From positions 1-64,000 of IMG/VR virus record IMGVR_UViG_3300046804_003617: DNA of 64,000 nt, one strand, 5' to 3'. Below the pieces are notes generated by a model. That model made no database searches and was not told the DNA's origin. It saw only the letters and a program-made list of their open reading frames with translations. Of this stretch, positions 9,680 to 61,690 are shown piece after piece. The stretch is from a virus. Position 1 is the first letter of the stretch. The number at the start of each line of letters is the position of its first letter. Both the position numbers and the translations under genes were made by a program.

Positions 9680-11797
9680 TTATACTATTTTGTCTATCAT
9701 TTTTATAACGTCGCCCGAACTTATCTGCTTGGTGCACTCGAAATCTTTGCCTCTGGGACACCAGTTCCAGTTTCCTTTGTCAAATGTGTGACTGACATCG
9801 TTCCAACATCCGTGGCATACATTCTTGTTTATTACTCTGTAGTCTGTATTGAATTCGGCAAACTCTTCGCTGAAGCCGCTGATAAGTATTACCTTTTGTC
9901 CAGCAGCCCAAGATAGCCAACTTAGTCCAGAACCAAGTCCAATGAAAAACTCAGCACCTTTTATCTGCGAAAGCCTTTCTTCCAGATGTAGATCTCCGGT
10001 TTTATCGATGGCTCCTTCTGGAATATAGTTCATCTTGTCCTTGCCTCCATATGAACTATGTCTGTCTATGCACCATACTTCATATCCTTTTTTGTTTAGA
10101 TAGTTTATGACTTCTTTCCATCCATCTGGGTTATTCCAATATTTTGCCTGCGCTGTGCTTTGGGTTGCTATGCAAACATATTTCTTGTCGTGCTTGACCG
10201 GAACAATTTCCAATTTTGGCTTATATTCAACAAGTGGCAGTCCAAGTATGTTTGGTGCAATCAATGCGAGAGAAGTTTTCTTTGGATCAACCGGTATGTT
10301 TCCGTTCCAATTGTTCTGGTCGAAATATCCGATGGAATATGCGGCATAATAGTTGTCATCGCTGTCGTTTGTTCTGGAGAATTTTATATCTTTGTAGTTC
10401 TTGGAGAATATTTCCAGAAATTGATCGTTGTATACCACGCAAGTGAGATCGCAGCCGTGAATTTGCCTGAACTTTTCAGCGGAACCAATATACGCCAATA
10501 TGTCTCCCATACTGTTGGTGTCAAATATCAGTTTTACCTTTTTGTTTTTTAGGTCAAAAGTGTGTGACTCCACCAAAATTTCCTCATTATCATTCATCTC
10601 ATATACCTCAACCACCCAATTTCTGAAATATCTTGGGATAGAAGAACTCCACATATTGTTTGTTATTGTGGTTTCATATGTGACGGTATTAACATCCGTG
10701 TCTGTGAATTTTATTTTGTATTTTTTGCTCACTGGACCAAGTATTTCAACCTTGGGTCCGGATGGAAACCATATCTTGATGTTGTTTTTTACTTCTTTGT
10801 GCGTCTTTTCGCAATTGATATAGTGGTTTATGATTCTGTTGGCAAATATGGTTTCACGATATTCGCTGTATATCTTCACCAAATCGTATACTCGTGAATC
10901 ATATGAGTTCTCGGCGGCGTTTTCCAACGCATCCTTTCTGAATTGATCGTAGTTTTGATCCACCAAACTGATAGCCGCTTCTGCTTCGGTGATGTCTCGT
11001 TTGCAAACAGCCATCCCCTTATATGAGGATTCTTCAAATGTTCCAATGACCGGCAGTCCGCAAGCCATAGCTTCCAGCAATGTAAGATTTGGGTGACCGG
11101 CTTCAAGTTCCGACAAATGAACAAATGCGTCGTGCTCATTATACAGATGGACCAGCCACTTTTCATCCAAATCATACAGCTTGGTCAGATTGGAATAGTT
11201 GTTCAATTTTGGATCAAGCGTCTTGAAGAAATTATTGTTGTTGCTTGGTCCGGCGATTGTGATCTGCATATCAAGATTCATCGCCGCTTGTATCGCAAGA
11301 CCAAATCCTTTTCTGTCAACGCTCTGGTTGTATGCATAACCATTGTTGGCCACACACAACAGTTTCAATTTTTTGTGTCTTACACGTTCGTTACATTTAA
11401 ATACGCTCGTGTTGACCGCGTGGCTGAAATAACGAAGTTTCTTGCTGCCGAAATATGGAATAAGATATTTGCACGGAGAAAGAGAAATTACGCTATTTTC
11501 AATCGCTTGTAGATTTTGCTTGAATAAATCAGAGTCTTTTCCATACAAATAGGCATGATGATCGTGAATGGTGAATATATAAGGTATTCCTCGTTCGTGA
11601 CACATATTCGCCAAATTGGCAACGTGAACGTGAACGATCATACTATCATCATACTTTATATCATTAAGATACAATATCTCGTTGTTGACCCCGATATTTT
11701 CCAGCGACAAATGATAATCCCAGATGATTTTTTCAACGGCACCCCATCCATTCGGTGGAATGGCGATTAGACCTGGAGTTACATTGATTACTTTCAT
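9680..11797 (-). CDS. Bifunctional glycosyltransferase: GT4 plus autotransporter heptosyltransferase-like domain
   Basis: 705 residues. Residues about 1-310 form a GT-B glycosyltransferase of GT4 type (ISLSPCKYLIPYFG, then LLEAMACGLPVIGTFEES for nucleotide-sugar binding). Residues about 345-705 match the autotransporter strand-loop-strand heptosyltransferase family (TibC/Aah type): GPKVEILGP and FDTNSMGDILAY early, STAQAKYWNNPDGW and IGLGSGLSWLSWAAGQ in the donor domain, and a four-Cys motif CHGCWND, WCPR, FECT (Cys661, 664, 680, 688). TibC uses ADP-heptose and an iron ion held by such cysteines to modify Ser on autotransporter repeats. The ATG overlaps the upstream stop (ATGA). Acceptor here is unknown; the nearby Ser-rich fibre is my candidate. 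Confidence 0.8.
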   Translation of the reverse strand: MKVINVTPGLIAIPPNGWGAVEKIIWDYHLSLENIGVNNEILYLNDIKYDDSMIVHVHVANLANMCHERGIPYIFTIHDHHAYLYGKDSDLFKQNLQAIENSVISLSPCKYLIPYFGSKKLRYFSHAVNTSVFKCNERVRHKKLKLLCVANNGYAYNQSVDRKGFGLAIQAAMNLDMQITIAGPSNNNNFFKTLDPKLNNYSNLTKLYDLDEKWLVHLYNEHDAFVHLSELEAGHPNLTLLEAMACGLPVIGTFEESSYKGMAVCKRDITEAEAAISLVDQNYDQFRKDALENAAENSYDSRVYDLVKIYSEYRETIFANRIINHYINCEKTHKEVKNNIKIWFPSGPKVEILGPVSKKYKIKFTDTDVNTVTYETTITNNMWSSSIPRYFRNWVVEVYEMNDNEEILVESHTFDLKNKKVKLIFDTNSMGDILAYIGSAEKFRQIHGCDLTCVVYNDQFLEIFSKNYKDIKFSRTNDSDDNYYAAYSIGYFDQNNWNGNIPVDPKKTSLALIAPNILGLPLVEYKPKLEIVPVKHDKKYVCIATQSTAQAKYWNNPDGWKEVINYLNKKGYEVWCIDRHSSYGGKDKMNYIPEGAIDKTGDLHLEERLSQIKGAEFFIGLGSGLSWLSWAAGQKVILISGFSEEFAEFNTDYRVINKNVCHGCWNDVSHTFDKGNWNWCPRGKDFECTKQISSGDVIKMIDKIV

Positions 11798-12630
11798 GCC
11801 TTGCCTCCGACATCCAACAAATAATTCATTGTCTGATATGCCAGCTTTCTGTCCTTGAAGCCGTGATACATTATTATTTGTGTAGAGTCATATACATATT
11901 CCCAGTCCGCGCCTAACGAATCTATATTCATTCCGATGCGCTGATCCTTGATGACTTCTGTTTCCACCTTCTTGACCAGTTCCGGGTTGTGAGTATTCAG
12001 GAATGCATATCCAAGATTCTGCGTGGCGTTTCTCTTGAACAAGCATACATTGAACCCTGTTTCATCTTGGAATGGAAAATATACCTTCTTTCTTGGTATG
12101 AGGTATTCGTTCTTGCACATCGAAGTATATTCTTCGAAGAAGTCTCTGCAATTGCGATTGAATGAATATATACAAGACCATACATATCTCATGGTGCGTT
12201 GTGGCACACCAAAGTATTTCATCAATGCGCTTTCGTCGTATACGATTCTATTGCCATCTATGACTTCATAAATAAAAGGATATTCGTGTGGTCCCATACT
12301 CGCCAACGGATATGAATGTGTATGCTCTATGGCGGCAGGATTGAACCGACGAGAATACAGCACATCCGTGTCAGTGAACATAAAATGCTGTTCGTCTGGG
12401 AACATATCCATAGTAAGAAGCGATAGTTCCGCCTTATAGAAATGAAAACTGGGATAAGACGGAATAGGTGCCAAGCGCACTTTCTTTACCTTGTTAAACT
12501 CATATACCGAATCAAACCCGATGGTATAGTATACTATGCGGTCATTTTCGCGCAGCCTTGGCAACAAGGTCTGTATGCAGGAAAACGCCTGATATTCGCA
12601 GTTCTTGTCTGTGTATAAAAATATGATCAT
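11794..12630 (-). CDS. GT-A-like glycosyltransferase
   Basis: 278 residues. It has a Rossmann-like start (MIIFLYTDKN) and a metal/nucleotide-sugar DxD-type motif in HFMFTDTDVLYSRRF, with FPFQDETGFNV further on, as expected for a GT-A sugar transferase. Family membership is uncertain. It overlaps both neighbours by four bases (ATGA at each end), so three glycosyl-active genes are translationally coupled: GT4-FkbM, this gene, then GT4-heptosyltransferase. Donor and acceptor are unknown. Confidence 0.65.
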   Translation of the reverse strand: MIIFLYTDKNCEYQAFSCIQTLLPRLRENDRIVYYTIGFDSVYEFNKVKKVRLAPIPSYPSFHFYKAELSLLTMDMFPDEQHFMFTDTDVLYSRRFNPAAIEHTHSYPLASMGPHEYPFIYEVIDGNRIVYDESALMKYFGVPQRTMRYVWSCIYSFNRNCRDFFEEYTSMCKNEYLIPRKKVYFPFQDETGFNVCLFKRNATQNLGYAFLNTHNPELVKKVETEVIKDQRIGMNIDSLGADWEYVYDSTQIIMYHGFKDRKLAYQTMNYLLDVGGKA

Positions 12631-14612
12631 AACTTTGTGGCAAATATTGATTCGCTGGATCCGGCATATTCTTCCACCGGCTTGTTGATAGCTTCTTCCA
12701 CCTTGTATCCCATAGACTCGACACGTTCGATGAGCTTGCGATACTTTTCCTTATAATCTTTTTCAAAGAAATGGCATTCTATGAACATGGTGTCTATATG
12801 CTCCGCCAATGCGGGGTCCATATTCTCGATGACATTATATTCCGATCCTTCAACGTCTATTTTAAGCAGATTGATGTGCTTCAGTCTATCAACCAGATCC
12901 TTTATGGTGATGGTTTCCACGATTGTCTTTTGACTTGGAAGCAATCCAGCACGATGCTGTGCTATATTTTCTGGTGGTATGGCGCTGCTGATGATTGAAT
13001 TCTCTGGGCAATTATAAAACGTGATTGGCTCATTATTATGACTCAGCGCCTTGTCTATCACTGTCACATTGTCGTTGAATTCATAATTGCGTCTTAAATC
13101 GGCCACGGCTTCGGCGTTGCATTCCACGGAAGTGATCTTTCTTGAAATCTTGCTGCGAATCAAGAATTCTGTGAATACTCCGATATTTGCACCAATATCC
13201 ACGGCAACCGGATATTTGGTATTTTTATTCAGCCATTTGGCGTATTTTCCAAGCACAAAATATTCCGAATAATTATACCAGTAAGGTGCACGATTGCTCA
13301 GTGATATGGTCGGAACATTCACAAATTTTCTGAAGAATGGTTCCTCATACAATTGTTCTTGTGTATCTTTTTTATACACGCAAAACTTTATACCGGCAAC
13401 GTGCTCATCTTTTTCATAGTCTCTGGTCTGCTTTGCGATTGGGATCATCCAATAATAGCAGTTGGCTGGAAAAGATGGATATTCCGTTGACCATAGTATG
13501 GCGTCGGACTTGTATTCTCGCAATGCCACGATGATAGGGAAATCAACCCCACGACCAGAACTATATGTCATTTTTTGCTCGTTGATGTCCCAAGTCGCCT
13601 GAAACAGATAATCGTTGTGCAATATGGTATGAGGTGTAGAAGATTTTGTTTCCATTTGTTTTATTCCTAATTTATTTAAAATTTTGTTTATATTGGCATC
13701 TTTTGATCCGAAATCAAGATATTCTATGTTTTCGTATTTGTCATACATTCCGAGATATACTGGAAGGTTGTATATCAATGATGGTATATTATATGATATG
13801 GCTTCTCGGATTACAAGCGGACTTGTTTCCTTGTCGTGCACGGTTCCACGCGATGTGAAAAGGAATAGATCCGCTGCTTGATAAAAATTCTCGACATCTT
13901 TTCTTTCATCCCACCATTTACAATTGCTTGGGAAGTTTTTCATTATAGGTTGCCAATAATCCCTGAAATTGTCCGCTTGGTTTCCCACGAAATGAAATTG
14001 TATCGGCTGTCCAAGCAAGCTTCTGGCATATTCCACTATTTCCAATTGGTTCTTGCGTGGAGTAAATAGCCCGACGTTAATCACGTGCTTCAGCTTTGGA
14101 TCCAATCCCAACACCTTCAACGCCTCTTCACGTGGCTTGCGTGGATTTATCACGATTGGATATTCATATACATCCATCGGAATATCCAAAGATTTCAACG
14201 ACTCCAATTGATATCTGCTTACGAACAGTATCTTGTCGGGAAAGAACACTTTGTTTTTTGGATCAAAGCTGCTGTCGTGGGATGTTTCGATGAGTTTGTA
14301 TGGACGATCCTTGCGATATAGTTTCTTGGCAATTTCGCCGTCCATAAAATATTCCGGCATTTCTTCAAGATGCACCACTTCCGGATTTATCTTTTCTATA
14401 TGGTCGAGTAGCTTTGGTCTGTCGTAATTCACAGATATGAATCTGTCTTTCAACAGTTCAATTATCTGGTTCTTTTGGATGGTGAATCTGCCGTGGTCTG
14501 CGTATTCTATGCAATATACTTCGTGTTCTTTGTTCAACACTTGTATCTTCTTCAATAGAAACTGTGGACACCCACCTGTAGAAAGATGGGGAGCAATATA
14601 AAGAATACGCAT
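12627..14612 (-). CDS. Fusion of GT4 glycosyltransferase and FkbM-type methyltransferase
   Basis: 661 residues. Residues 1 to about 310 are a GT-B glycosyltransferase (MRILYIAPHLSTGGCPQFLL, the VGLFTPRKNQ strand, ETSPLVIREAISYNIPSLIY in the donor site). Residues about 330-440 form a beta-rich connector with many aromatic residues. Residues about 445-661 are an FkbM-family SAM methyltransferase: AVDIGANIGVF (near 470) binds SAM, followed by TSVECN and LLKIDVEGSEY (near 584). FkbM enzymes O-methylate sugars, so this protein may add and then cap a sugar. A TTGACG/TAATAT promoter-like pair sits upstream. Confidence 0.82.
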   Translation of the reverse strand: MRILYIAPHLSTGGCPQFLLKKIQVLNKEHEVYCIEYADHGRFTIQKNQIIELLKDRFISVNYDRPKLLDHIEKINPEVVHLEEMPEYFMDGEIAKKLYRKDRPYKLIETSHDSSFDPKNKVFFPDKILFVSRYQLESLKSLDIPMDVYEYPIVINPRKPREEALKVLGLDPKLKHVINVGLFTPRKNQLEIVEYARSLLGQPIQFHFVGNQADNFRDYWQPIMKNFPSNCKWWDERKDVENFYQAADLFLFTSRGTVHDKETSPLVIREAISYNIPSLIYNLPVYLGMYDKYENIEYLDFGSKDANINKILNKLGIKQMETKSSTPHTILHNDYLFQATWDINEQKMTYSSGRGVDFPIIVALREYKSDAILWSTEYPSFPANCYYWMIPIAKQTRDYEKDEHVAGIKFCVYKKDTQEQLYEEPFFRKFVNVPTISLSNRAPYWYNYSEYFVLGKYAKWLNKNTKYPVAVDIGANIGVFTEFLIRSKISRKITSVECNAEAVADLRRNYEFNDNVTVIDKALSHNNEPITFYNCPENSIISSAIPPENIAQHRAGLLPSQKTIVETITIKDLVDRLKHINLLKIDVEGSEYNVIENMDPALAEHIDTMFIECHFFEKDYKEKYRKLIERVESMGYKVEEAINKPVEEYAGSSESIFATKL

Positions 14613-15316: not shown

Positions 15317-18211
15317 TCAGTCGGCAGTTTCTGCTCCGGACTTTATTCTTTTATCTATAAAAAGACGCAAAAGATACACGATATATGCCTCACCGGCATA
15401 TTTGTTGGTAAGAACAGCCTGAGTGACATTATTCAGCTTTTGCTGCAAGAAAGCCAGCTGACTCTCCGTCTTTGCTGTGCTGTCTGGATCAACTTCTCCG
15501 CTGGCTTTGATCTCGTTCCACTTTGCCTGTATTTCCTTAAGTTCCTTTTGTGCGGATGCCAATACTTCATTTGCGCGAGTTCTTACTGCTTCGGGTGAAG
15601 CATCAATTCCTTGTGCTTTCAATGAATTATATACTTCGAGTGTAACTTTGTTTGCGGAAGCATCGTCTGTGACATCTCCCACCTTTGCTTTTGCGGCGGC
15701 GATGGTTTTATTAAGTGTGGCGGCGTGAGCGGTTGTCATACCAAGAACCTTGGTAAGAAATGCACCATCAAGAACCTTTTCAGCATTTCCAACTGCCTTA
15801 CGAGTTCCCCAAGTCTTTTCAGCAATCTTGTGAAATATTTCAGAAGTGCCCTTGATAAAAACAGGCTCATCGGGAAGATTGATTTTCAACACAACGCCTT
15901 CAACTGGATATTTACGAGAAGCGTCTGAACTTAGGAACGTATTGATGCGTTCGGCATACTTGTTGAGCACTCCTTGCATCTGATCCTTGACCTTGCGGAT
16001 GATCTTTTTTAAAGCGTCCTTCTCGGGACTTTCTTTGCGAGTTTTCAACAATGCTGCTGCTTGTGATAGTTTGGCTGGGTCGCCAACGAGCTTTTGAATT
16101 CCGGAAAGATTAAATACCAATCCTTCTCTGCTCAGTGATCCGTGCTTGCTGATATTGTACACTTTCCATTCTGGATCACTTGTGCTTTCAACCATATCCA
16201 ATATTTCTTCGGACGATTCTTCTCCGTGCTTTTCACAGGTTGCTCCAAAGCACACAAACGCTCCCCTGTTTCCAAGTTTGGATTTGTTGTATTTGGTGGA
16301 AGCAAACACGATATCACCAAGCTCATCGCCCTTATGGGTCAATACAGGAAACATTTCAGATGTGATCTTGAATGCGCCGTGTTTCTTTTTTATTGCCTGC
16401 AACTTTGTTTGCAATGGCTTGTATCCGTTCAGGAACTTCAGTGCCTCATAGAAATGAACGGTGAATGGATTATTCAGCTTTTCCGCGTTGGATATGGTTA
16501 CTTCTCCGCTGTTGGCGGATTCTACAAAGAATTGACCAGACGCATTCAATCCCCATTTGCAGGGAGAGCCATCAAGTTTTTCAGTGACTGATGCATTATT
16601 GGCTACGCTCAGATCCATTTTACCCTGTTTTACCAGTGGCTGGATACGGCGTAGAAAGTCCAAGAATTCAGCGTCGGTCATTTCATTTGCACCTGAGAAA
16701 CGCTGGATGGAAAGTTTGTTTGCTTCTTCAAGCCTTGGATGTAGCAGATCCGGCTCCGCCGCTTGGCTCTTTGCCATATTTTCCTTATATGCGTCGATGA
16801 TCTCTTTTCTGAATTGCGGGAACTTGAAATCCTTGGACTTGAACAAAGCATACACTTTTTCAAATGTATCAATGTCCGCGAATGTCTTGTCTTCACCAAA
16901 CAGGAACTTTGCCACAAAATCCATATCCGTGGACTTTAGCTCTCTGCTAACTTCCTTGCGCTTGCCCTTGGCATCAACCGTGAACTTTTGCAGGAAGAAT
17001 CCTTCTGCCGGTGAAAGCATATATTTCTGCTTCAAACCATTTGGTCCAGCGTCTTCAATGATCTTGGAAAGTATTTCAGATATCAGCAGGTTTCTGAATT
17101 TTGCCTTGTATTGACTTTCGGGGGCACCGGAATAAAACTTTTCTCTCCAGCTTCTCACACCAAGCATAACATCAACCTGCACATATGGCTCTTTGTTTGG
17201 ATCTTCACTGCCGTCCTTGTTTACAAATGGCTGGTTGACAGCCTTTCCAAGCAAATGAAACTGAAACAGTCCTTTTGCCGGTTTTCCTGCCGGAAACTTC
17301 TTTGATAATGCATCAAACAGAGCATCCTTGTCAGCCGTAGGAGGCAGCTTCAAGAACTTAAGCATATCTTTTGTATCAACTGCGATGTCTATATCTCCCA
17401 GCAATGGCTTGCTGAAGTTTCCTATTTTGGAGTATTGGATCTTGCCGAGACCATTGTCTTTCAGTACTTGTGTTATTGTTGGGTCAAGGTTTTCACGCCT
17501 CACCGCAGAGACTTCGACATCAAACATTTCTCCACCTTCTTTGAGCTTCTTCTTGGCTGGTTTTTCCGGTGGAACATATCCGGCGGCTTCCTTGAATTTA
17601 TCAGAGAGCAGCTTTGCTATCTTAGGATCATACCAACCGAAGATCTTATCAAATGTTTCCTTGCTTGGATTTGACGCGATCATACCACGGATTTCGGTTC
17701 CGCTAAGTTCCTTGCCGTCAACTTTAAGGGAAAAATGTGGAATAACAATCAGATATCCGTGCTTTGTGAAATCTTCAAGGTTGTTCTTGTTCTTTTCATA
17801 AAACTGTAAGTATGCTGGAGAACCATCTTTCTTTACGCCGCCAACGTTGAATCTTTCAGCGTCTTTCTTTCCGAATCCAAATACTATGGCGGAGTTTTCG
17901 GGAAGCATATCCAATACTTCCGTTGCAATATATGGGTTCTTCACTTGAACAATCTTGTCAGCGGGAACTCCATACTTTACCCACACTGCTTTCTTTTCAG
18001 CAAAGCTTAATGGGCTATCTGGCAATTCTACCTTATCGGATGTGACAACGAAAGTTTTATCTACACCAAACTTGTCGGCCAAATACTTGTATGCCTGATA
18101 ATGGTGCGGTCCTGCTGGATGGAAACGGCCAGGATAGATGGCGTATACTTGATTGCTGTTTACGATTTCGTTATATAACTGTTCAATGATTTGCTCGGTA
18201 AGTTTGTCCAT
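15317..18211 (-). CDS. Tri-domain enzyme: NMNAT-like, Pol-beta nucleotidyltransferase, nucleic-acid-ligase-like
   Basis: 964 residues with three nucleotidyl-transfer modules. (1) Residues about 20-210: HIGH-superfamily adenylyl/cytidylyltransferase, GRFHPAGPHH at 28-37 and SGTEIR at 170-175; the first His of the usual HxGH is replaced by Gly, so activity is uncertain. (2) Residues about 235-400: Pol-beta superfamily, LLGDIDIAVD (Asp273, Asp275) and a third acid in YVQVDVML (Asp347). (3) Residues about 495-790: ATP-grasp-like polynucleotide ligase/capping fold, motif I EKLDGSP (Lys545), SEMFP, motif IV EGVVLKI and FIKG. The rest is helical. A late-type element lies five bases before the ATG and a terminator separates it from the glycosyltransferases. 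Its weak N-terminal match (MDKLTEQIIEQLYNEIV) suggests packaging. RNA repair or nucleotide tagging are guesses. Confidence 0.75.
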   Translation of the reverse strand: MDKLTEQIIEQLYNEIVNSNQVYAIYPGRFHPAGPHHYQAYKYLADKFGVDKTFVVTSDKVELPDSPLSFAEKKAVWVKYGVPADKIVQVKNPYIATEVLDMLPENSAIVFGFGKKDAERFNVGGVKKDGSPAYLQFYEKNKNNLEDFTKHGYLIVIPHFSLKVDGKELSGTEIRGMIASNPSKETFDKIFGWYDPKIAKLLSDKFKEAAGYVPPEKPAKKKLKEGGEMFDVEVSAVRRENLDPTITQVLKDNGLGKIQYSKIGNFSKPLLGDIDIAVDTKDMLKFLKLPPTADKDALFDALSKKFPAGKPAKGLFQFHLLGKAVNQPFVNKDGSEDPNKEPYVQVDVMLGVRSWREKFYSGAPESQYKAKFRNLLISEILSKIIEDAGPNGLKQKYMLSPAEGFFLQKFTVDAKGKRKEVSRELKSTDMDFVAKFLFGEDKTFADIDTFEKVYALFKSKDFKFPQFRKEIIDAYKENMAKSQAAEPDLLHPRLEEANKLSIQRFSGANEMTDAEFLDFLRRIQPLVKQGKMDLSVANNASVTEKLDGSPCKWGLNASGQFFVESANSGEVTISNAEKLNNPFTVHFYEALKFLNGYKPLQTKLQAIKKKHGAFKITSEMFPVLTHKGDELGDIVFASTKYNKSKLGNRGAFVCFGATCEKHGEESSEEILDMVESTSDPEWKVYNISKHGSLSREGLVFNLSGIQKLVGDPAKLSQAAALLKTRKESPEKDALKKIIRKVKDQMQGVLNKYAERINTFLSSDASRKYPVEGVVLKINLPDEPVFIKGTSEIFHKIAEKTWGTRKAVGNAEKVLDGAFLTKVLGMTTAHAATLNKTIAAAKAKVGDVTDDASANKVTLEVYNSLKAQGIDASPEAVRTRANEVLASAQKELKEIQAKWNEIKASGEVDPDSTAKTESQLAFLQQKLNNVTQAVLTNKYAGEAYIVYLLRLFIDKRIKSGAETAD

Positions 18212-18254: not shown

Positions 18255-19138
18255 TATAGAGCAAGATTCAATTGTCTAAGCTTTTTATAATATGGTATAG
18301 ACCAAGCAAATTCCGCAGGAAAATTTTCTATATTGGCTTCAAAGTCGTAGGTATATTCCTTGATTGCGGAAAGATAATGGTCTTTGATTGTTATCTTATC
18401 CGATTTAAGAGTGTTATATAGAGTTATATTGGCGGCGTGCTTTACATATATACCAAAAAATTTCTTGGTTATTGTTTCTCCGTCTTGGAATAAATCCTTA
18501 TATTCTTTTTTTCTTGCCAATATTCGTGGCATAGTATGTCTTAGCAAAAACATATCCGCATCTTCCTCGTTTCGTCGAAGCATTTCTTTGATGATTTTTG
18601 CTCGGAATCCGTAGCAATTCGAAAGCAGCCCTCTTGCAACTCTTTCGCTATACATATCCAACTTTGCTGGCAACTGCGGATGCCTGTAACAATAGCAGGT
18701 TCTGGTAGAATCCACACCTATAGAAACCGCATCCCAAAGAATAAGACTGTTTTTTGGAAAATCCAATTCTGATATTTCTGGAGACAACCAATCGTCATCA
18801 TCCAATGGTATGATAATATCGTCATCGCGCAATGCCATCAATTCCTCTCTGGCAGAATCTTGGATATGAACATATGGCAGCTTCCACGTGCTTTTTATTT
18901 TTTTGTCCACGTGGTTATAAATGATACGATCAGATATGTTTTTGATGCAGCTTAGTTGTATTTGATGAACCTTTTTCCGGTAATCGTGTATAGAAATCTT
19001 GAATAATTTATCGAATTCTTCCGCACATTGTCTGGCATCCACTGCCATACTTCCGTGACCAACTTCCGGCATCATACTTTCTTTGAATAGTGCTCGTATA
19101 AAAAATACAATTTTGTGGTTCTTTTTATTTTCGGTCAT
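18254..19138 (-). CDS. GT-A glycosyltransferase (DDDD motif)
   Basis: 294 residues from the ATG at 19136-19138, which overlaps the upstream stop as ATGA; a longer non-ATG start would bury deep in that gene. The key motif IIPLDDDDWLSPEI supplies the metal and nucleotide-sugar-binding aspartates, preceded by SAREELMALRDDD. Surrounding segments (ILWDAVSIGVD, LLSNCYGFRAKIIKEML) fit a small GT-A fold. Distant similarity to rhamnosyl- or galactosyl-transferase types is possible but not decidable by eye. It forms a coupled pair with the GT8-like gene. Confidence 0.65.
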   Translation of the reverse strand: MTENKKNHKIVFFIRALFKESMMPEVGHGSMAVDARQCAEEFDKLFKISIHDYRKKVHQIQLSCIKNISDRIIYNHVDKKIKSTWKLPYVHIQDSAREELMALRDDDIIIPLDDDDWLSPEISELDFPKNSLILWDAVSIGVDSTRTCYCYRHPQLPAKLDMYSERVARGLLSNCYGFRAKIIKEMLRRNEEDADMFLLRHTMPRILARKKEYKDLFQDGETITKKFFGIYVKHAANITLYNTLKSDKITIKDHYLSAIKEYTYDFEANIENFPAEFAWSIPYYKKLRQLNLAL

Positions 19139-20307
19139 GGCAACAGATATTTGTAATACTTTTTGATATGACCAAGCTTTCCTCCAGTATTCGCTATACT
19201 TCCCATATAATGAACGGTTACAGAATCCGGATTGGTAACTGTGCGAGTTTCTTCGGTATTTACCGGTATAAAACAAAATTGGTCTTTAAATTTAAATATA
19301 TTAGATATCATTAATATGTTAAAGTACGTATTCATGAAACTTTGTTCGAAAAAGTATTGACCCGGCCACTTCTGGGCAAATTCGTAAATGTTTTTGAAAT
19401 GTTTGATCATGGTCGAAGTATTCATAAAGAAAAACTGACCAGCATTGAACGCAAATATACATTTGAAATCTAGCACTGCTATATGAACATCCGAGTATTG
19501 TTGTATCGTGTGATATACGGACCTGTGCAATGTCTTGTCAATTCTGTGAGATGCGCTGTAAAATACGTTTGGTCTGACTCTTTCTTCAAAAATTTTGGAA
19601 AGATCTCCCACGATCAATATGTCCAAATCCAAAAACAATATTTTCTTATAATCGTTTATTTTCTCAAACTCATAGATTTTTAGCTTCTGCATAGATGCTT
19701 CAACTGTATCCACAATCTTGTGCATTATGAGATAATGAACGTTGAAATGCTTGATGAGGGGCATTTTTTCTATTAATTTTTTGGTACGCTTGTCTGTTAT
19801 GAACAACAGATCAAAGTTCTGATAGGGCTGTTTCTTGAGACCCTTAAGCAAGTATTTCAATAATTCTATATACCCAGAATCTCCGAAAGCTGAAAAATAT
19901 ATCAAATTCTTTTCGCCTTTAATGTTGTCATCTATCTTTATATCTACGCCTCGTTTTATCCACTTCTTCAGCATTTTTAGCGATTTTTCATCGCCAAGTT
20001 TATCTGGATTTTTGATGAATTCTAGACCTCCATTAATAACGGAAAATTCTTTGTCTTTTTTTCTAAGCGCTATTCTTCGTCTCCAAGTTTTGTCTCTTGA
20101 AAATGGACAAAATTCAACAGAATCGCAAGATTCATATACATCATCGGGTATGATAATAAATTCCTGTGCATTGTGATTAAGCACCATCATTTCCTGCTTT
20201 GATATTTCACGTGTATAAATTGCCTTGTTATTTTTAACGGCAACAACCAATACGTGCAATATTTCGTTGAGATTTCCTATATGCGTATAGGGTATTTTTA
20301 TATTCAT
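19135..20307 (-). CDS. GT8-like glycosyltransferase
   Basis: 390 residues. The hallmark of GT8 (glycogenin/LPS galactosyltransferase) is present: KILFLDLDILIVGDLSKIF near residue 226 with the DxD metal site, and FNAGQFFFMNTS downstream, plus a late HYMG...KLGHIKKYY segment. The N-terminal 110 residues form a separate region of unknown role. It probably transfers a hexose from a nucleotide sugar while retaining configuration. It is the first gene of the glycosyltransferase group, with a strong sigma70-like promoter before it, and AAAAAGG is seen before the ATG. Confidence 0.75.
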   Translation of the reverse strand: MNIKIPYTHIGNLNEILHVLVVAVKNNKAIYTREISKQEMMVLNHNAQEFIIIPDDVYESCDSVEFCPFSRDKTWRRRIALRKKDKEFSVINGGLEFIKNPDKLGDEKSLKMLKKWIKRGVDIKIDDNIKGEKNLIYFSAFGDSGYIELLKYLLKGLKKQPYQNFDLLFITDKRTKKLIEKMPLIKHFNVHYLIMHKIVDTVEASMQKLKIYEFEKINDYKKILFLDLDILIVGDLSKIFEERVRPNVFYSASHRIDKTLHRSVYHTIQQYSDVHIAVLDFKCIFAFNAGQFFFMNTSTMIKHFKNIYEFAQKWPGQYFFEQSFMNTYFNILMISNIFKFKDQFCFIPVNTEETRTVTNPDSVTVHYMGSIANTGGKLGHIKKYYKYLLP

Positions 20308-20882: not shown

Positions 20883-23800
20883 TTATTTATTCTTCAGCTC
20901 CAATAATTGCGATTTGACTTCTTTTAATTCTGCTGATAGTTCTTTTACTGCGGCAATAAGTGCGGCGGTTAATTTACCATATTCCAATCCAGAAATATTA
21001 CCATCTTTGTCTTTGTTGACGATTGTTGGTATCAGTTCATTTACTTCTTCTGCGATCATGCCTATGTCGTTGGTTACATCCTTATTTTTCCAATCGAATG
21101 TGACTGGACGCAACTTTTGTATCATATCCATACCATTTGTCAAATCTTTAATATTTGTCTTGAATCTTCTGGATGATGTGCTGTTAAATGATACTGCGGT
21201 AACTGCTCCGCTTGAATCAAGAACAATGTTTCCTCCACCAACTCCCACTGTTCCGCTGAATGATCCTCCACCGGTACAATCAAATCCTCCGGTTCCTACT
21301 TCCGCTCTTCCGCAAACAATAGTGGAGGCTCCTCCACCAAACTGGAATTTGCTACTTGCATATTTGAATTCTGCACCAGCAAGTGTAAGTACTCCTAGAT
21401 CATTTAGTTTTGTAGAATACCCAGATCCAAGTTGAATAGAGGCGGCGGCACCTCCTCCGGTCAATAGAAGAGGATACGAACCGGTCAATCCAATCGTTGC
21501 TTGGTTTGTTGATGCATCGATACTCAACCCATTTCCTGTTATCTTTGCTGCGGAATTTGTTGCGCTCGATAATCCCCCCGCTCCTATGTTCCATCCGGCA
21601 ATAGTTCCTGAATTTGTCGCGGTCAACGACGTTGCCGTGACAGTTCCCGATATTGTTGCTGATGTGGCGGTCAATGCGCCTCCAGAAGTGACTTGGAATG
21701 TTCCGCTGTTTATATTCAATGTTCCACCAGTTATGGAAACATCCGCACAGCTTATGTTTCCGTTACTATTCAACGTCGTAGAACCGGCAGTCAATGTTGT
21801 GGACCCAATGGTCCATCCACCAATACTGCCGCCGCTATTGGCGTTTAAGGTAGAAACCGTCAGAGTACCATTACTGTTTAGTGTGGTAGAGCCGCCGGTC
21901 AAGCTGCTTGCGCCTATGGTCCATCCACCAATACTACCACCACTGCTTGCGTTTAATGTTGAAACTGTAAGCGTTCCGTTGCTATTTAGAGTCGTGGAAC
22001 CGCCCGTCAACGTACTTGCACCAATAGTCCACCCACCGATACTACCAGCACCGGCGGTAACGGTGCCACTTACAGTAGCAGATGACAAATTCGCCGAAGT
22101 CGCAGTCAATATTCCAGACGGACTTACACTGAAATTCGTAGAACCTGTGATAGAACCATTACTATTTAATGTCAATGCGCCTCCAGTTATGGTACTACTT
22201 CCAATAGTCCATCCACCAATAGTACCGCTTGTTGAAGTTATCTTTCCGGAAATATCCGCCGCACTCGCGGTTACACGGCCATTTGAATCAACTCTAAACG
22301 CCCCGCTTCCTATATTTAATGTACCACCAGTGATAGTACCTCCGCTTATGGTTGGAGAATTTATTGTGAGTGCAGCGTTTATTGTTCCGGCATTGATCTT
22401 GTTTGCATCCAAATTGCGAATATATGCCTGATCCATATACACTCCACTAATGTCAACGAGGAATGGAGTAATAACACTTCCTTCATCTCCCAGAGTATTC
22501 ACAACCTTAAACGTATCCGCTTGTATTATAAATGAAGAGGACGCGACGCTCGATGCTATTTTATATCCAGCAACTCTGTTTCCGGCTGTGACTGCCAGTA
22601 CATACTGGGCTTTCAAACTTACTACAGAACCGGATACCGCCGCTGATGTGGTCTGTGTCGTTGATATACTTGCGCTTAAATTTGATCCACTTATATTAAG
22701 TGCGCTTGTCAAGTTGTTGATGCTAGTTGCGGCTGACGAACTGTTGTTCGTGACTGTGTTGCTGAGACTATTAATGTTTGATTGTAAAGTAGAGCCGCTC
22801 GTATTAAGAGCGCTCGTCAAGTTGTTGATGCTGGTCGCGGCTGAAGCACTATTTGTGGTAAGAGTACTGTTTGTCGTGGTAATGCTCGAAGCCAGAGACG
22901 AACTGTTTGTGGTGATCGAACTACCCAGGCTGTCCATGCGGGTCGCCGCAGACGAACTGTTCGTGGTGACCGTGGTGCTCAGGCTATTGATGTTCCCCTG
23001 CAAGGTCGAACCGCTTGTGTTGAGGGCGCTCGTCAAGTTGTTGATGCTGGTCGCGGCTGAAGCACTATTTGTTGTGATAGTACTGTTTGTCGTGGTGATA
23101 CTTGATGCCAACGACGAGCTATTTGTCGTGATTGAACTACTTAAACTGTCCATTCTAGTAGCCGCAGACGAACTGTTATTTGTGACAGTGTTATTAACAG
23201 TGTTTATATTGGACTGCAACGTTGACCCGCTGGTATTAAGAGCACTGGTCAAGTTATTGATGCTGGTCGCCGCTGAGGCACTATTCGTGGTAACGGTGCT
23301 ATTCGTTGTTGTTATGCTGGAGGCTAGAGAAGAACTGTTTGTTGTAATTGAACTACTCAGACTATCCATACGAGTAGCAGCCGAAGAACTGTTGTTTGTG
23401 ACAGTTGTGCTCAGACTATTGATGTTCGATTGTAATGTCGAACCACTTGTATTCAACGCGCTTGTTAAATTATTTATGCTGGTCGCAGCAGATGCGCTGT
23501 TTGTCGTGAGAGTGCTATTAGTTGTTGTGATACTGGATGCCAACGAAGAACTGTTTGTGGTGATCGAACTGCTCAGAGTATCCATCCGAGTAGCTGCGCT
23601 TGAACTGTTATTCGTGACCGTGGTACTTAGACTATTAATATTCGATTGCAATGTCGAACCACTGGTATTCAACGCACTCGTCAGATTATTGATACTGGTT
23701 GCTGCGGACGAACTGTTCGTCGTCACGGTACTATTTGTCGTTGTGATGCTGGATGCGAGTGAAGCGCTATTTGTAGTAATAGAACTATTCAAGCTGTCCA

Positions 23801-26800
23801 TTCTTGTGGCTGCTGAAGAGCTATTATTCGTGACGGTTGTACTTAAGCTGTTAATATTTGACTGAAGAGTCGAACCACTGGTATTCAGCGCACTTGTTAG
23901 ATTATTCAAGCTCGTAGCAGCAGATGCGCTATTTGTGGTAACAGTACTATTCGTCGTTGTTATGCTGCTTGCCAAAGAAGCGCTGTTGTTTGTAATTGAA
24001 CTGCTTAAGCTATCTATACGAGTTGCCGCTGAGGCGCTATTGTTTGTAACTGTAGTACTGAGAGTATTGATGTTGGACTGCAACGTAGAGCCGCTTGTGT
24101 TCAATGCGCTCGTAAGATTGGTTATACTGGTTGCGGCAGAAGCACTGTTGGTTGTAACCGTGCTGTTTGTTGTCGTGATACTAGAAGCCAGCGAAGCACT
24201 GTTGGTTGTGATGGAACTTCCGAGGCTATCCATACGTGTGGCGGCGGATGAACTGTTTGTCGTGACCGTTGTGCTTAACGTATTAATATTCGACTGAAGA
24301 GTTGAACCACTAGTATTTAGAGCACTGGTTAGGTTATTGATGCTTGTTGCTGCCGATGAGCTATTTGTTGTAACCGTGCTGTTTGTTGTCGTGATGCTGG
24401 ACGCAAGAGAAGCACTATTGTTGGTAATAGAGCTGTTCAACGTGTCCATCCTTGTAGCCGCAGACGAACTGTTATTTGTGACGGTCGTGCTAAGAGTATT
24501 AATATTTGACTGTAAACTTGAACCACTTGTATTCAACGCACTGGTTAGGTTATTAATACTTGTTGCTGCCGATGAACTATTGGTCGTTATTGTGCTGTTT
24601 GTGGTGGTAATACTACTTGCCAAGGATGCACTGTTCGTTGTAATCGAACTGCTGAGACTATCCATTCTGGTCGCAGCAGATGAACTGTTATTAGTTACAG
24701 TGTTGCTCAGTGAAGTGATGTTTGATTGCAACGTAGACCCGCTGGTATTCAAAGCACTTGTGAGATTGTTTATACTTGTTGCAGCAGATGAACTGTTTGT
24801 TGTAACCGTACTGTTTGTTGTTGTGATGCTTGACGCCAGCGATGAACTATTGGTTGTGATTGCGCTGTTCAAACTGTCCATACGAGTTGCGGCGGAAGAA
24901 CTGTTTGATGTGACCGTGTTGCTTAACGATGTAATATTTGACTGCAACGTTGAACCGCTTGTGTTTAAAGCGCTTGTGAGATTGTTGATACTTGTGGCAG
25001 CGGACGAACTGTTTGTCGTTACCGTGTTCTGAACCGATGTGATATTCGACTGTAATGTGGAGCCACTGGTATTAAGAGCACTCGTTAGATTATTTATTGA
25101 TGTTGCCGCTGATGAGCTATTCGTTGTAACTGTATTGTTTACTGTTGTGATACTTGAAGCCAGCGACGAACTGTTATTGGTGATTGAACTATTTAAAGTG
25201 TCCATCCGCGTTGCTGCCGATGAACTGTTGCTGGTTACCGTATTGCTTAGTGAGGTGATATTTGATTGTAATGTGGATCCACTTGTATTCAACGCACTTG
25301 TCAGATTATTGATGCTGGTCGCGGCGGATGAGCTATTTGTGGTAACCGTGCTATTTGTGCTGGTAATGCTGCTTGCCAACGACGCGCTATTGTTAGTAAT
25401 AGAACTTGATAGAGTATCAATCTTTGTTGCCGCAGATGAACTGTTTGTAGTTACAGTGTTACTTAAAGATGTTATGTTTGACTGTAGTGTAGATCCACTT
25501 TGATTCAGTGCGCTGGTCAAGTTGTTTATACTTGTGGCTGCGGATGAACTGTTTGTCGTGATGGTGCTATTTGTGCTGGTAATACTCGATGCCAAAGAAG
25601 AACTGTTGTTCGTGATGGAACTATTAAGCGTATCCATACGTGTTGCAGCAGATGAACTGTTTGTGGTAACAGTATTGCTCAACGATGTAATATTGCTTTG
25701 TAGAGTAGATCCACTGGTATTTAGTGCAGCCGTTAAATTATTAATGCTTGTTGCCGCCGAAGCACTGTTTGTTGTTATCGTGCTCTGGGTTGATGTGATC
25801 GAAGCATTTAGCGAGGCGGAGGCGTTGGTATAAGAAGAACTCAGAGTCGTCAACTGTAGTGCGAGGGACGAGCTTGCGGTTGTCAACGAACTTCTCACAT
25901 CGGTGATAGATGCCGCCAATGATGCGCTGTCCAATGAACTGGATTGACCAGCCGATATAGAATCAATTCTTCCGGCAAATGACGAGGATGTATTGGTAAA
26001 TGTGGTATTCGCCGTTGTTATAGATGCCGCCAATGAAGCACTGTTGTTTGTTATAGAACTGGACAGCGTGTCGATCTTTGTTGCGGCAGACGAACTGTTG
26101 TTGGTGACAGTTGTGCTCAGAGTATTGATGTTGGACTGCAACGTAGATCCACTGGTGTTCAGCGCCGATGTCAAATTATTGATACTCACCGCAGCAGAAG
26201 AACTATTCGTTGTTATGGTTGACTGCGTGCTTGTGATAGAAGAGGCGAGAGAAGCACTTGCGTTAGTAATGTTGGTGGATACAGTGTCAACTCTACCGGC
26301 CAGAGATGAACTGGCTGTGGTCAAGGTATTGTTTGTTGTTGTAATGCTTGCCGCAAGAGAAGAACTGTTGGTTGTTATAGAACTGCTGAGTCCATCCATT
26401 CTCGTTGCTGCGGATGAGCTATTGGTTGTCACCGTTCCTTGCAACGTCGTCAGTGAACTTGCGAGAGAAGAACTGTTTGTTGTAACATTTGAAGAAATGG
26501 TATCAACTTTGGAAGCGAGTGATGAACTTGCATTTGTCAATGTTGTATTTACTGACGAAATTGATGAAGCAAGTGAAGCGCTGTTACTGGTAACTGTACT
26601 TGACAGGTTGTTTACTGCCGTGGCAGCAGATGCGCTGTTTGTAGTAACGGTGGATTGTGTGCTGGTGATGGAAGCGGCAAGAGAAGAACTTGCATCAGTA
26701 AATCCGGATGATATACTATCAACCTTAGCAGCAAGAGAAGAACTTGTATTGGTTAAAGTAGTGCTTGTGCTAGTTATTGATGCGGCAAGTGACGAGCTAT

Positions 26801-28556
26801 TAGTATTAATGCTGCTTTGCAATCCATCCATTCTCAATGCTGCGGATGAACTATTTGTAGTAACTGTTGTGCTTAACGATCCTATATTTGATGAAAGCGA
26901 AGAAGATGCGTCTAAGTAAGACGAACTTAATGTAGTCAGCTTTGCCGCTAAAGATGAGCTTGTGGTTGCCAGCGTGTTGTTTACTTGGGTTATGGAAGCA
27001 GCGAGAGAAGCACTGTCCAGTGATCCTGTTCCACCAGCCATTGCAGCAATAACATCTATTCTATTGGCAAATGACGAGGATGTATTGGTAAATGTCGTGT
27101 TTGTGGTGGTGATACTTGCAGCCAATGATGCGCTGTTGTTTGTGATCGCACTTGACAGTGTATCTATTTTTTGTGCGGCGCTGGAACTGTTTGTTGTTAT
27201 TGTTCCCTGAACAGAAGTTATTGTGGACGCAAGAGATGAGCTATTAGTTGTGACCGTACTGGACAGAGTATCCATTCTTGTAGCCGCCGACGAACTGTTT
27301 GTTGTCACAGTGCTACTTAACGTATTGATATTTGACTGTAAACTTGAACCACTTGTATTTAAAGCACTTGTCAAATTGTTTATACTTACTGCTGCCGAAG
27401 AACTGTTGGTGGTGATTGTTCCGTTGGTGGTGGTGATGCTGGAAGCCAATGATGCACTGTTTGTGGTTACTGTGCTGCTAACCGTATCTATTTTGGCAGC
27501 AAACGAGGAAGAGTCGGTGGTCACTGTTGCATATACACTTTGTATGGATGATGCCAGTGAAGCGGAATCTTGGGTGACTCTGTTGCTCACGCTGCTTAAG
27601 CTTGAAGAAAATGATGCCGAATTTAAAGTTATTGCCGAAGCAAGAGAAGCGGAAGCATCGGTAACAGAAGAACGTATTGAAGTAGAAACAGATGCGGCGG
27701 ACGCAGAGTTTGCGTTTATGCTTGCATACGCAGCGGAAATATTGCTATTGATGGACTGCGATACAATATACAAAGAAGAAGAAACCGTCTGTATGCTGGC
27801 GGATATTGCAGCTATGCTGCTGGAAGTTGATGATACAAGAGAAGAGGAAACTGAATTTATTGTGCTATACAAAGATGCGGTGGCAGAATTCAAGTTTTCA
27901 AATACCTGAGAAACGGATGCCGAGTTCTGAGTCACCGCCGATGCCAAAGATGAAGATGCGGTGTTTATTGCCGAATAAACTGCTACCAAACTTTGGGTTA
28001 TTGATTGATCTATGGAAGCGGACGTAGATGCTAAAATTTGCGGGACTATATCTTGAATACTCTGGGATACTATACTTGAAATTGAAGAAGAGATTACAGT
28101 GTTTACATCTCCCAGACTTTGTGATATTTGATTATTAAGGGATTGTGATACTGCATTTAATTGTGAAATACTAACCGAAGATGTTGGTAGTCCAATAACG
28201 GCCCCAGCACCATATTGTATACTTAATGTGCCGTCATCTTGGTCGGTGAGTCTTATATTTCCAACGTAAATACTACCAGAACTTACATACAAGTCTTTCC
28301 ATCTGTTTGAGGGACTGCCCAGATCATATATAGCATCTGTTATAGGAACCAAACTTTGGGATATTTGAGACCCATCAAATGTTCCTCCCGTGGTATATGC
28401 CAAACTGTTCCAAGCAGTAGCTCCATTGCCTATCTTCAATTTTCCAGTATCGGTCTCGAATCCAGCTTCACCACTCGAAAGTGTCGGGTTTACAAACGAC
28501 CAGTTTGCTGCCGTGTCTCTTCTTAGCTGTATTTTTTGGATTGCGATGGTTGACAT
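20883..28556 (-). CDS. Giant Ser/Thr/Asn/Ala repeat tail fibre with S74 chaperone
   Basis: 2557 residues, among the largest fibres expected for a phage. The first 60 residues (IQLRRDTAANWSFVNPTL, FETDTGKLKIGNG) are a fibre attachment domain of the major-tropism-determinant N-terminal type. A long helical/repeat region follows, with about 18 copies of NLTSALN, mostly in 72-residue units (216 bp). Next are five copies of a GGWTIG motif, and finally a C-terminal peptidase S74 intramolecular chaperone: SSRRFKTNIKDL starts it, IGMIAEEVNELIP and LIAAVKELSAELKEV end it. S74 domains fold trimeric fibres and then cut themselves off. Repeats may act as a long rod. Ser/Thr density makes it a possible glycosylation target; that is inference. 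Confidence 0.88.
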   Translation of the reverse strand: MSTIAIQKIQLRRDTAANWSFVNPTLSSGEAGFETDTGKLKIGNGATAWNSLAYTTGGTFDGSQISQSLVPITDAIYDLGSPSNRWKDLYVSSGSIYVGNIRLTDQDDGTLSIQYGAGAVIGLPTSSVSISQLNAVSQSLNNQISQSLGDVNTVISSSISSIVSQSIQDIVPQILASTSASIDQSITQSLVAVYSAINTASSSLASAVTQNSASVSQVFENLNSATASLYSTINSVSSSLVSSTSSSIAAISASIQTVSSSLYIVSQSINSNISAAYASINANSASAASVSTSIRSSVTDASASLASAITLNSASFSSSLSSVSNRVTQDSASLASSIQSVYATVTTDSSSFAAKIDTVSSTVTTNSASLASSITTTNGTITTNSSSAAVSINNLTSALNTSGSSLQSNINTLSSTVTTNSSSAATRMDTLSSTVTTNSSSLASTITSVQGTITTNSSSAAQKIDTLSSAITNNSASLAASITTTNTTFTNTSSSFANRIDVIAAMAGGTGSLDSASLAASITQVNNTLATTSSSLAAKLTTLSSSYLDASSSLSSNIGSLSTTVTTNSSSAALRMDGLQSSINTNSSSLAASITSTSTTLTNTSSSLAAKVDSISSGFTDASSSLAASITSTQSTVTTNSASAATAVNNLSSTVTSNSASLASSISSVNTTLTNASSSLASKVDTISSNVTTNSSSLASSLTTLQGTVTTNSSSAATRMDGLSSSITTNSSSLAASITTTNNTLTTASSSLAGRVDTVSTNITNASASLASSITSTQSTITTNSSSAAVSINNLTSALNTSGSTLQSNINTLSTTVTNNSSSAATKIDTLSSSITNNSASLAASITTANTTFTNTSSSFAGRIDSISAGQSSSLDSASLAASITDVRSSLTTASSSLALQLTTLSSSYTNASASLNASITSTQSTITTNSASAATSINNLTAALNTSGSTLQSNITSLSNTVTTNSSSAATRMDTLNSSITNNSSSLASSITSTNSTITTNSSSAATSINNLTSALNQSGSTLQSNITSLSNTVTTNSSSAATKIDTLSSSITNNSASLASSITSTNSTVTTNSSSAATSINNLTSALNTSGSTLQSNITSLSNTVTSNSSSAATRMDTLNSSITNNSSSLASSITTVNNTVTTNSSSAATSINNLTSALNTSGSTLQSNITSVQNTVTTNSSSAATSINNLTSALNTSGSTLQSNITSLSNTVTSNSSSAATRMDSLNSAITTNSSSLASSITTTNSTVTTNSSSAATSINNLTSALNTSGSTLQSNITSLSNTVTNNSSSAATRMDSLSSSITTNSASLASSITTTNSTITTNSSSAATSINNLTSALNTSGSSLQSNINTLSTTVTNNSSSAATRMDTLNSSITNNSASLASSITTTNSTVTTNSSSAATSINNLTSALNTSGSTLQSNINTLSTTVTTNSSSAATRMDSLGSSITTNSASLASSITTTNSTVTTNSASAATSITNLTSALNTSGSTLQSNINTLSTTVTNNSASAATRIDSLSSSITNNSASLASSITTTNSTVTTNSASAATSLNNLTSALNTSGSTLQSNINSLSTTVTNNSSSAATRMDSLNSSITTNSASLASSITTTNSTVTTNSSSAATSINNLTSALNTSGSTLQSNINSLSTTVTNNSSSAATRMDTLSSSITTNSSSLASSITTTNSTLTTNSASAATSINNLTSALNTSGSTLQSNINSLSTTVTNNSSSAATRMDSLSSSITTNSSSLASSITTTNSTVTTNSASAATSINNLTSALNTSGSTLQSNINTVNNTVTNNSSSAATRMDSLSSSITTNSSSLASSITTTNSTITTNSASAATSINNLTSALNTSGSTLQGNINSLSTTVTTNSSSAATRMDSLGSSITTNSSSLASSITTTNSTLTTNSASAATSINNLTSALNTSGSTLQSNINSLSNTVTNNSSSAATSINNLTSALNISGSNLSASISTTQTTSAAVSGSVVSLKAQYVLAVTAGNRVAGYKIASSVASSSFIIQADTFKVVNTLGDEGSVITPFLVDISGVYMDQAYIRNLDANKINAGTINAALTINSPTISGGTITGGTLNIGSGAFRVDSNGRVTASAADISGKITSTSGTIGGWTIGSSTITGGALTLNSNGSITGSTNFSVSPSGILTATSANLSSATVSGTVTAGAGSIGGWTIGASTLTGGSTTLNSNGTLTVSTLNASSGGSIGGWTIGASSLTGGSTTLNSNGTLTVSTLNANSGGSIGGWTIGSTTLTAGSTTLNSNGNISCADVSITGGTLNINSGTFQVTSGGALTATSATISGTVTATSLTATNSGTIAGWNIGAGGLSSATNSAAKITGNGLSIDASTNQATIGLTGSYPLLLTGGGAAASIQLGSGYSTKLNDLGVLTLAGAEFKYASSKFQFGGGASTIVCGRAEVGTGGFDCTGGGSFSGTVGVGGGNIVLDSSGAVTAVSFNSTSSRRFKTNIKDLTNGMDMIQKLRPVTFDWKNKDVTNDIGMIAEEVNELIPTIVNKDKDGNISGLEYGKLTAALIAAVKELSAELKEVKSQLLELKNK
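21575..22235 (-). repeat. GGWTIG-type repeats of the fibre C-terminal part
   Basis: Five copies of a motif related to GGWTIGASTLTGGSTTL, about 36 residues apart where regular, located between the Ser-rich rod and the S74 domain. They probably form a beta-structured receptor-binding or connector region. Confidence 0.7.
22690..27400 (-). repeat. Protein-level tandem repeats of the giant fibre
   Basis: About 18 copies of a unit marked by NLTSALN...SGSTLQSNI, then SSSAATRMDSL and SSITTTNS; spacing is about 216 bp with some half-units near 108 bp. Copies keep amino acids but differ widely at third positions, so DNA copies are old or selected against identity. Confidence 0.85.
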
Positions 28557-33700: not shown

Positions 33701-33914
33701 CTTCCGGAGACAAATCTACCTTGCTATGCAACGTATCTCCGGTATTTATGATGACGGTATTCTCGGGAGTATTTAAAATTTCAGCATACAGCGTCTCGAA
33801 CGCCTCTCTATATTCCTCGTGGCGCTTTGTGAGACGAATATGAATGTCGGATATGTGCACAACATAATCAATTCTATCCAAGCCTATATCCAGTTTTTCA
33901 AATGTATCTACCAT
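30708..33914 (-). CDS. Fused Mre11-Rad50 (gp47-gp46/SbcD-SbcC type) recombination nuclease
   Basis: 1068 residues containing both halves of a complex that is normally two proteins. Residues about 1-350 are the Mre11/SbcD phosphoesterase: HISDIHIR, NTGDTLHSK, IAGNHDC, LFHGG and GDIHMIQ supply metal ligands. Residues about 395-1068 are the Rad50/SbcC ATPase: Walker A GLFAANASGKSS (near 425), a coiled coil with zinc hook CKYC (near 741), signature ELCSGMEKFISGL (near 975) and Walker B FLVVDEGFSALD (near 1003). In T4, gp46/47 resect DNA ends for recombination-dependent replication. Fusion enforces one-to-one stoichiometry. It lies four bases after the primase stop. No frameshift is visible. Confidence 0.9.
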   Translation of the reverse strand: MVDTFEKLDIGLDRIDYVVHISDIHIRLTKRHEEYREAFETLYAEILNTPENTVIINTGDTLHSKVDLSPEAVQLASEFFHRLAELRPTIVIAGNHDCLLTNVTRLDSISPIVDNLKHKRLFYLKNTGLYGVANLLINNMSVFDDPTKYIRMKNVSKKIKMTFDDKIALFHGGVLNAQTDVGYAVTDKTITNELFDGHDMAMLGDIHMIQDLQAYDKTNEKPIIRYAGSLIQQNHGEALLGHGFSLWDIKQRTYSHVEIPNDYGYFTIEIDDGKLITDITDMPKKPKLRVRCKESVATEVKKVINELRKKYEISDLIYVRVDTDGATKVAQAQNISNLNQIGNIDYQNKIISEYLKKKFVDVMDDETVETVCKINKELNASLTKEDTSRNIRWKPIKFEFSNMFSYGEKNVLDFTKLEDVYGLFAANASGKSSLMDALCFTVFDKSARAFKATHVMNSQKMSFSGKFTFEINNIQYVIEREGKRDKKNNVKVDVNFYKIEKDNKVSLNSEARRSTNEIIRDYLGDYDDFVLTTLALQGNQGSFIDMGQTERKELLSQFIGLNLFDKLASLSADKTKELSGAVKLFNKENGLKKISQIKNDVELLESKLLDLNFQKEENTTKKNELDTQIDAQKANIVKLENVPTNIMPIVRERDGLVLKNKQAMETIEKIDADVSSKKPEYVEAANKLKEFPDDLKEKNDKYQSLARSKQRIENEMDKLKAIVSEKLKKLAHLDKHEYDPNCKYCCDNIFVKDAISTRESLAADKAEAKDLSDALSKVKAEMETYAEYVSKYEQSVELKDRVNSLTAFISKKELEKSNLKSGVEKNAVRIKELQDQIELYEKSKEIVESNKAIEDIVTDLKIKVSNVSSKLKNIEKEYMDAYSKKVSFGDQLKETEKQLSTIEQYEDDLGAYQYYTSAVGKDGVPYQIISDAIPKIEQEVNNILSHIVEFSMGIETDGKNVNVYIKYEDRKWPLELCSGMEKFISGLALRVALINVSNLPRPNFLVVDEGFSALDGSNIPMLHALFDYLKRNFEFIIIISHLDAMRDMVDKQLEVKKENGFSKIDNSV

Positions 33915-61629: not shown

Positions 61630-61640
61630 AAATTTGGTTG

Positions 61641-61670
61641 TTGAGCCATATACATTGGCATATGGCCCAA
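61641..61670 (-). promoter_or_regulatory. Inverted repeat/hairpin upstream of dnaK
   Basis: On the coding strand TTGGGCCATAT and ATATGGCTCAA pair around eight bases (11 bp with one G-U), ending 11 bases before the ATG. A TTGACA at 61674-61679 lies just upstream. The arrangement recalls CIRCE-type operators or an RNA thermosensor, but the bases do not match CIRCE. Confidence 0.5.
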
Positions 61671-61690
61671 CATTTGTCAACTTTTATTTT

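Follow-up and report, generated by a model that had tools for sequence, protein, structure and literature searches.

A phage-encoded TibC-type glycosyltransferase module joined to a GT4 domain, and its possible action on serine-rich fibres

When a phage encodes glycosyltransferases close to its tail-fibre genes, the usual explanation is that they modify lipopolysaccharide (LPS) or DNA (PMC7029224, PMC10202952). The gene P0001, whose product carries a module related to the protein glycosyltransferase TibC, raises the question of which molecule such a phage enzyme modifies. It is located in a stretch of 64,000 nucleotides, here called the window, which is most of the 76,167-base IMG/VR record IMGVR_UViG_3300046804_003617 (label G000). 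Profile matches identified T4-like terminase and portal genes in the window, and the closest annotated relatives of the terminase are found in Microcystis phage Mel-JY01 (54%), an isolate that also encodes a module of TibC type, and in Flavobacterium phages (51%); psbA, tried as a host marker, was absent from the 34 virus records searched for it. Our best reading, to which we assign a probability of roughly 0.55, is that the P0001 cassette attaches sugars to Ser residues of the repetitive, Ser-rich fibre of the phage itself, and it is an association between module and fibres that suggests the fibre as acceptor. The gene and its module are as follows:

9680..11797, minus strand: P0001, 705 aa, from ATG to stop without internal stop, with a GT4 domain (GT4B) at residues ~1-330 and a TibC-like module (AHT) at residues 334-704
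9683..10798, minus strand: AHT module, with beta-barrel (~339-413), catalytic D432, donor-site residues T548, K552, R608 and W627, and putative iron finger C661, C664, C680 and C688

Family, fold and active-site residues of the module

Residues 160-253 of P0001 matched Glycos_transf_1 (PF00534, 1.2e-9), and residues 334-704 matched NCBIfam TIGR04414 (hepto_Aah_TibC, 5e-107) with 358 bits at a curated cut-off of 200. TibC itself was matched by residues 350-704 (PDB 4rb4/4rap, 7e-74 and 2e-73). P0001 is confirmed by these matches, for which chance is excluded, as a fusion of a GT4 domain with a complete TibC-type module; the original prediction had read the same composition from the sequence and placed the start of the module at residue 345, about right given that the TIGR04414 match begins at 334. 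The AlphaFold2 model of P0001 had a mean predicted local distance difference test score of 91.7 and a predicted template modelling score (pTM) of 0.57, the latter being low in a way that fits two domains of uncertain relative placement. In a Foldseek search of the PDB with this model, the top matches were TibC chains (E 6.5e-36, TM-score 0.88 normalised to TibC), spanning 372-379 columns of a GT-B catalytic fold, and the N-terminal beta-barrel was kept (predicted strands 339-413). Profile search and structure prediction, the two checks proposed along with the original prediction, hence both matched the heptosyltransferase family and fold.

The residues to which roles have been assigned in TibC, namely the catalytic Asp, the donor site and the iron finger (PMC4358343), could be mapped onto P0001, with D110, T226, K230, R286 and W305 of TibC corresponding to D432, T548, K552, R608 and W627. 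The four-cysteine motif that had been pointed out at residues 661-688 aligns with the iron finger of TibC, C339/C342/C358/C370 corresponding to C661/C664/C680/C688, and is a putative iron site. Among 60 dereplicated viral modules, the catalytic Asp, the Trp and all four Cys were present in 60 and the Lys in 58. In TibC, the beta-barrel and the iron finger serve activity or recognition of TibA, and the enzyme targets Ser, modified Thr not having been found (PMC4358343). Taken from profile, residues and predicted fold, the assignment of P0001 to the protein Ser O-glycosyltransferases of TibC type is well supported and very probably correct. The tip of the hydrophobic beta-hairpin thumb, responsible for dodecamer formation in TibC (PMC4358343), is D587/K588 in P0001 in place of F265/V266; these positions vary in bacterial members too, for which reason we rejected the idea that the exchange proves a different oligomeric state.

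Some viral loci contain further relatives of the module. A short second TibC-type paralog (~285 aa) adjoins the main one in three loci (L177:11106-11951, L190:7426-8283 and L192:6273-7136); it lacks the beta-barrel and retains D, T, K, R, W and the four Cys. In another locus (L065:5737-6693), a 318-aa GT9-like relative adjoining the cassette keeps D110 and T226 and has lost K230, R286, W305 and Cys339/342.

Distribution of the module and its cassette

A module of this kind on a phage had been considered unexpected, which was not borne out by the searches: alignment matches to the module covered at least 579 viral stretches in IMG/VR and at least 579 bacterial stretches, and UniProt/BFVD contains a phage entry named 'Aah/TibC'. 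A scan with full-length P0001 yielded 72 IMG/VR loci, many of which aligned across residues 1-705. In a tree of 90 rows, 60 of them viral, 59 of the viral rows fell together on the same side of a branch that had 100% support in the Shimodaira-Hasegawa-like approximate likelihood ratio test; the bacterial rows were the 80 best matches to the viral query, subsequently thinned, and closer bacterial sequences than these could exist. The remaining viral row (L212) grouped with bacteria. Together with L210, which has a similar enzyme, it is an IMG/VR contig with an enzyme of bacterial type, and prophage or host DNA is the probable origin of both.

The AHT module is accompanied by GT4A and/or GT4B, either adjacent or within the same protein, in most viral representatives. 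With separate genes denoted by a slash, the arrangements were A / B+AHT (the window type), A / B / AHT, A / AHT, A+AHT and AHT+FkbM, and L204 unites several cassette domains in one protein of 1891 aa; neither GT4 was detected in viral rows including L055, L058, L074, L076, L202 and L218. In contrast, GT4A or GT4B was found in none of 80 bacterial loci (flanks of the best 80 of at least 579 bacterial matches), and weak FkbM matches were found in 8 of the 80. The cassette of the window is completed by two genes:

11794..12630, minus strand: P0002, 278 aa, predicted GT-A-fold glycosyltransferase, GT6-like, with DTD motif
12627..14612, minus strand: P0003, 661 aa, GT4 domain (GT4A) plus FkbM-type methyltransferase

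P0002 had no family match in sequence profile searches; its model (pTM 0.85) was structurally most similar to alpha-1,3-galactosyltransferase (E 3.8e-8, TM 0.56). Four-base overlaps between P0003 and P0002 and between P0002 and P0001 suggest that the three genes form one operon.

Ser-rich fibres as candidate acceptors

The original prediction had named the Ser-rich fibre as the likely target and host surface autotransporters as the alternative. The relevant genes in the window are:

19135..20307, minus strand: GT8-like glycosyltransferase adjoining the fibre gene (PF01501, 1.3e-5, 25.4 bits, cut-off 24.3)
20883..28556, minus strand: fibre, the proposed acceptor, 2557 aa, with Mtd_N head, 18-residue-based Ser/Thr/Asn-rich repeats and C-terminal Peptidase_S74 (S74) chaperone

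Ser and Thr account for 42.5% of this fibre, compared to 8-22% of the other window proteins measured, and among these the fibre alone shows extreme Ser content. Fibre heads of the Mtd_N type were found in only 4/45 virus records, and an S74 search with the window fibre as query matched only its near twin. For the comparison across viruses, a fibre was counted as Ser-rich if it contained a 200-aa block with at least 30% Ser, a threshold chosen after the first fibres had been seen. In the larger set, whose module-positive part includes loci retrieved with the module itself, such a block was present in 17/33 S74 fibres whose locus contains the module and in 5/83 whose locus does not (Fisher's test ignoring relatedness, 1.3e-7). 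Among the fibres retrieved by the S74 domain alone, the figures were 10/13 and 4/82 (same test, again ignoring relatedness, p=2.5e-8); Thr blocks did not differ (p=0.32) and the overall Thr fraction differed slightly (p=0.034). In collagen-like fibres, the median Ser fraction at X/Y positions was 0.425 with the module and 0.03 without (p=0.003), with p=0.27 for Thr. Two fibres with S74 domains 88% identical differ accordingly, L255 being of Thr type without the module and L242 of Ser type with it. One of the five Ser-rich fibres counted as module-negative (L260) has the module elsewhere in its record, and a whole-record search of 48 module-negative records, which are fragments, found it in two only, L260 and L394.

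Because all of these tests ignore relatedness, and only ~4-5 independent pairs in the S74 tree agree with 0-1 disagreeing (p 0.06-0.625, median 0.125), the link between module and Ser-rich fibres is suggestive. The proposal of the Ser-rich fibre as target is supported in that Ser-rich S74 fibres accompany the module across IMG/VR, and this support is only partial once relatedness is considered.

Besides this low number of independent pairs, the late choice of the threshold and the way in which the larger set was retrieved, several observations weigh against our best reading. The repeats of the window fibre are probably coiled-coil, unlike the beta-helix acted on by TibC. Ser-rich fibres occur without the module (L361/L376/L413, L245, L266), the main counter-examples being the collagen-like fibres of L361, L376, L413, L373 and L386, whose records lack a TibC-type module and which are perhaps glycosylated by another route; conversely, the module occurs with Ser-poor fibres (L028-L031, L170, L173, L378/L394). 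An S74 fibre was within 10 kb of the module in 12/20 records, a slight excess over the 7.7 expected by random placement (p=0.025), and we dropped proximity as main evidence at this p value. No S74 gene was found in 25/45 virus records, many of them fragments. Within the module, the position of TibC P300 is Gly in P0001 (G622), and the adenine-contacting Arg (R286 in TibC) is lost in 19/60 viral modules, so that members of the viral family may use different donors.

It is unlikely that the cassette instead alters the host surface (LPS or O-chain) against superinfection, which is the published proposal for pelagimyophage glycosyltransferases encoded in the fibre region (PMC7029224). LPS synthesis typically involves GT4, GT8 and heptosyltransferase-like domains, and Glyco_transf_9 is also matched by the module, but the beta-barrel and iron finger of the module are those of TibC and not of WaaC, the profile of which (TIGR02193) scores it at 18.5 bits only; moreover, an LPS target would not predict an association with Ser-rich fibres. 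We regard as improbable that another virion protein (capsid, tail tube or other fibre) is glycosylated and that the fibre association is a lineage effect. The exceptions to the association are compatible with this, and glycosylation of capsid and tail tube in mycobacteriophages is known, as cited in PMC12619734, but extreme Ser content in the window is confined to the fibre, and near-identical S74 pairs divide by Ser type.

A target on the host surface, be it an autotransporter or another protein, is what every characterised TibC/AAH enzyme modifies (PMC4358343), but is quite improbable for the phage module. The strand-loop-strand target repeat TIGR04415 was found in 7/8 bacterial genomes that encode the enzyme, compared to 1/45 virus records, host genomes not being part of this search; the sole positive record is L210 with its bacterial-type enzyme, and a profile search did not find the repeat in the window record. 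In addition, the phage cassettes contain extra glycosyltransferases absent from bacterial loci. The alternative target named by the original prediction is disfavoured by the same observations. Least probable is hypermodification of phage DNA, for which virus-encoded glycosyltransferases are known (cited in PMC12619734) and which would go with the DNA methylase gene of the window, as protein Ser is what the TibC family modifies, the protein-contacting parts are conserved, and no base-hydroxymethylation gene was seen in the part of the genes scanned in this 76-kb fragment.

Three other genes of the window, all on the minus strand, may be mentioned. The 964-aa protein encoded at 15317-18211 begins like a nucleotidyltransferase (PGRFHP) and contains KLDG, a motif that recalls ligases, and its homologue in Mel-JY01 is annotated as cytidylyltransferase-like; 30708-33914 encodes a 1068-aa protein uniting SbcD-like and SbcC-like parts; and 59773-61680 is a full-length HSP70/DnaK gene (PF00012, 1.1e-259).

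Proposed pathway and comparison with known systems

If the fibre is the acceptor, the AHT module would transfer one sugar, probably heptose from host-made ADP-heptose, onto fibre Ser, as TibC does on TibA. GT4B and the GT4A of P0003, perhaps together with P0002 and the GT8-like enzyme, would lengthen this first sugar, and methylation of the resulting glycan may be the role of the FkbM domain. We infer the donor sugar, the order of steps, extension, methylation and any advantage that they bring, for instance a shielded or stiffer fibre. ADP-heptose is a likely donor, the conserved donor-site residues of P0001 being our sole reason for naming it. No gene of its pathway was found in the window's record, and in 34 virus records neither gmhA nor hldE was found above cut-off except gmhA in LR756504, so ADP-heptose, if it is the donor, must be supplied by the host. 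In this 636-kb phage (LR756504.1, 430182-430640), gmhA, the first step of ADP-heptose synthesis, scored 251.5 bits and lies ~27 kb from a TibC-type module; a match to hldE domain II in G041 was below cut-off and at the contig end.

More tentatively, and with slightly less than even confidence, we propose that an old, diversified and widespread viral TibC-type branch builds glycans together with two GT4s on extremely Ser-rich collagen-like or coiled-coil fibres, with fibre and enzyme selected together. Many phages may thus sugar-coat their own fibres.

No description of a phage TibC-type cassette or its target was found in the literature searched. The module as such is already annotated in viral proteins of UniProt, i.e. 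A0A6J5SVC1 ('Glycosyltransferase Aah/TibC', uncultured Caudovirales phage) and A0A7S9XE01 (Virus NIOZ-UU157), the latter aligning with P0001 over nearly its full length. These are single database entries only; the wide spread among viruses and the association with Ser go beyond them. In mycobacteriophages, virion proteins are glycosylated by phage-encoded glycosyltransferases (Freeman et al. 2023, as cited in PMC12619734 and PMC11256854), a likeness to the present proposal; the targets there are capsid and tail tube, and the passages citing this work do not mention a TibC-type module.

The closest known system is the BAHT family (bacterial autotransporter heptosyltransferases, TIGR04414) with TibC of enterotoxigenic Escherichia coli and AAH, which add heptose to Ser of bacterial adhesins and whose genes often, but not always, have an autotransporter gene next downstream (PMC4358343). 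P0001 resembles it in fold, sequence (~37% identity), catalytic Asp, donor site, four-Cys iron finger and N-terminal beta-barrel, and differs in the fusion to GT4, the location among GT4/FkbM genes, the thumb tip (variable in bacteria as well), the missing TIGR04415 target and the separation of the viral from the bacterial clade. The P0001 module is a viral branch of the TibC-type family, for which we do not claim the label 'autotransporter heptosyltransferase'. Its tie to Ser-rich fibres offers an alternative answer to the usual explanation of such genes, namely that in some phages the glycosylation target may be the phage's own receptor-binding fibre; if true, a protein glycosylation system of bacterial adhesins has a large viral branch.
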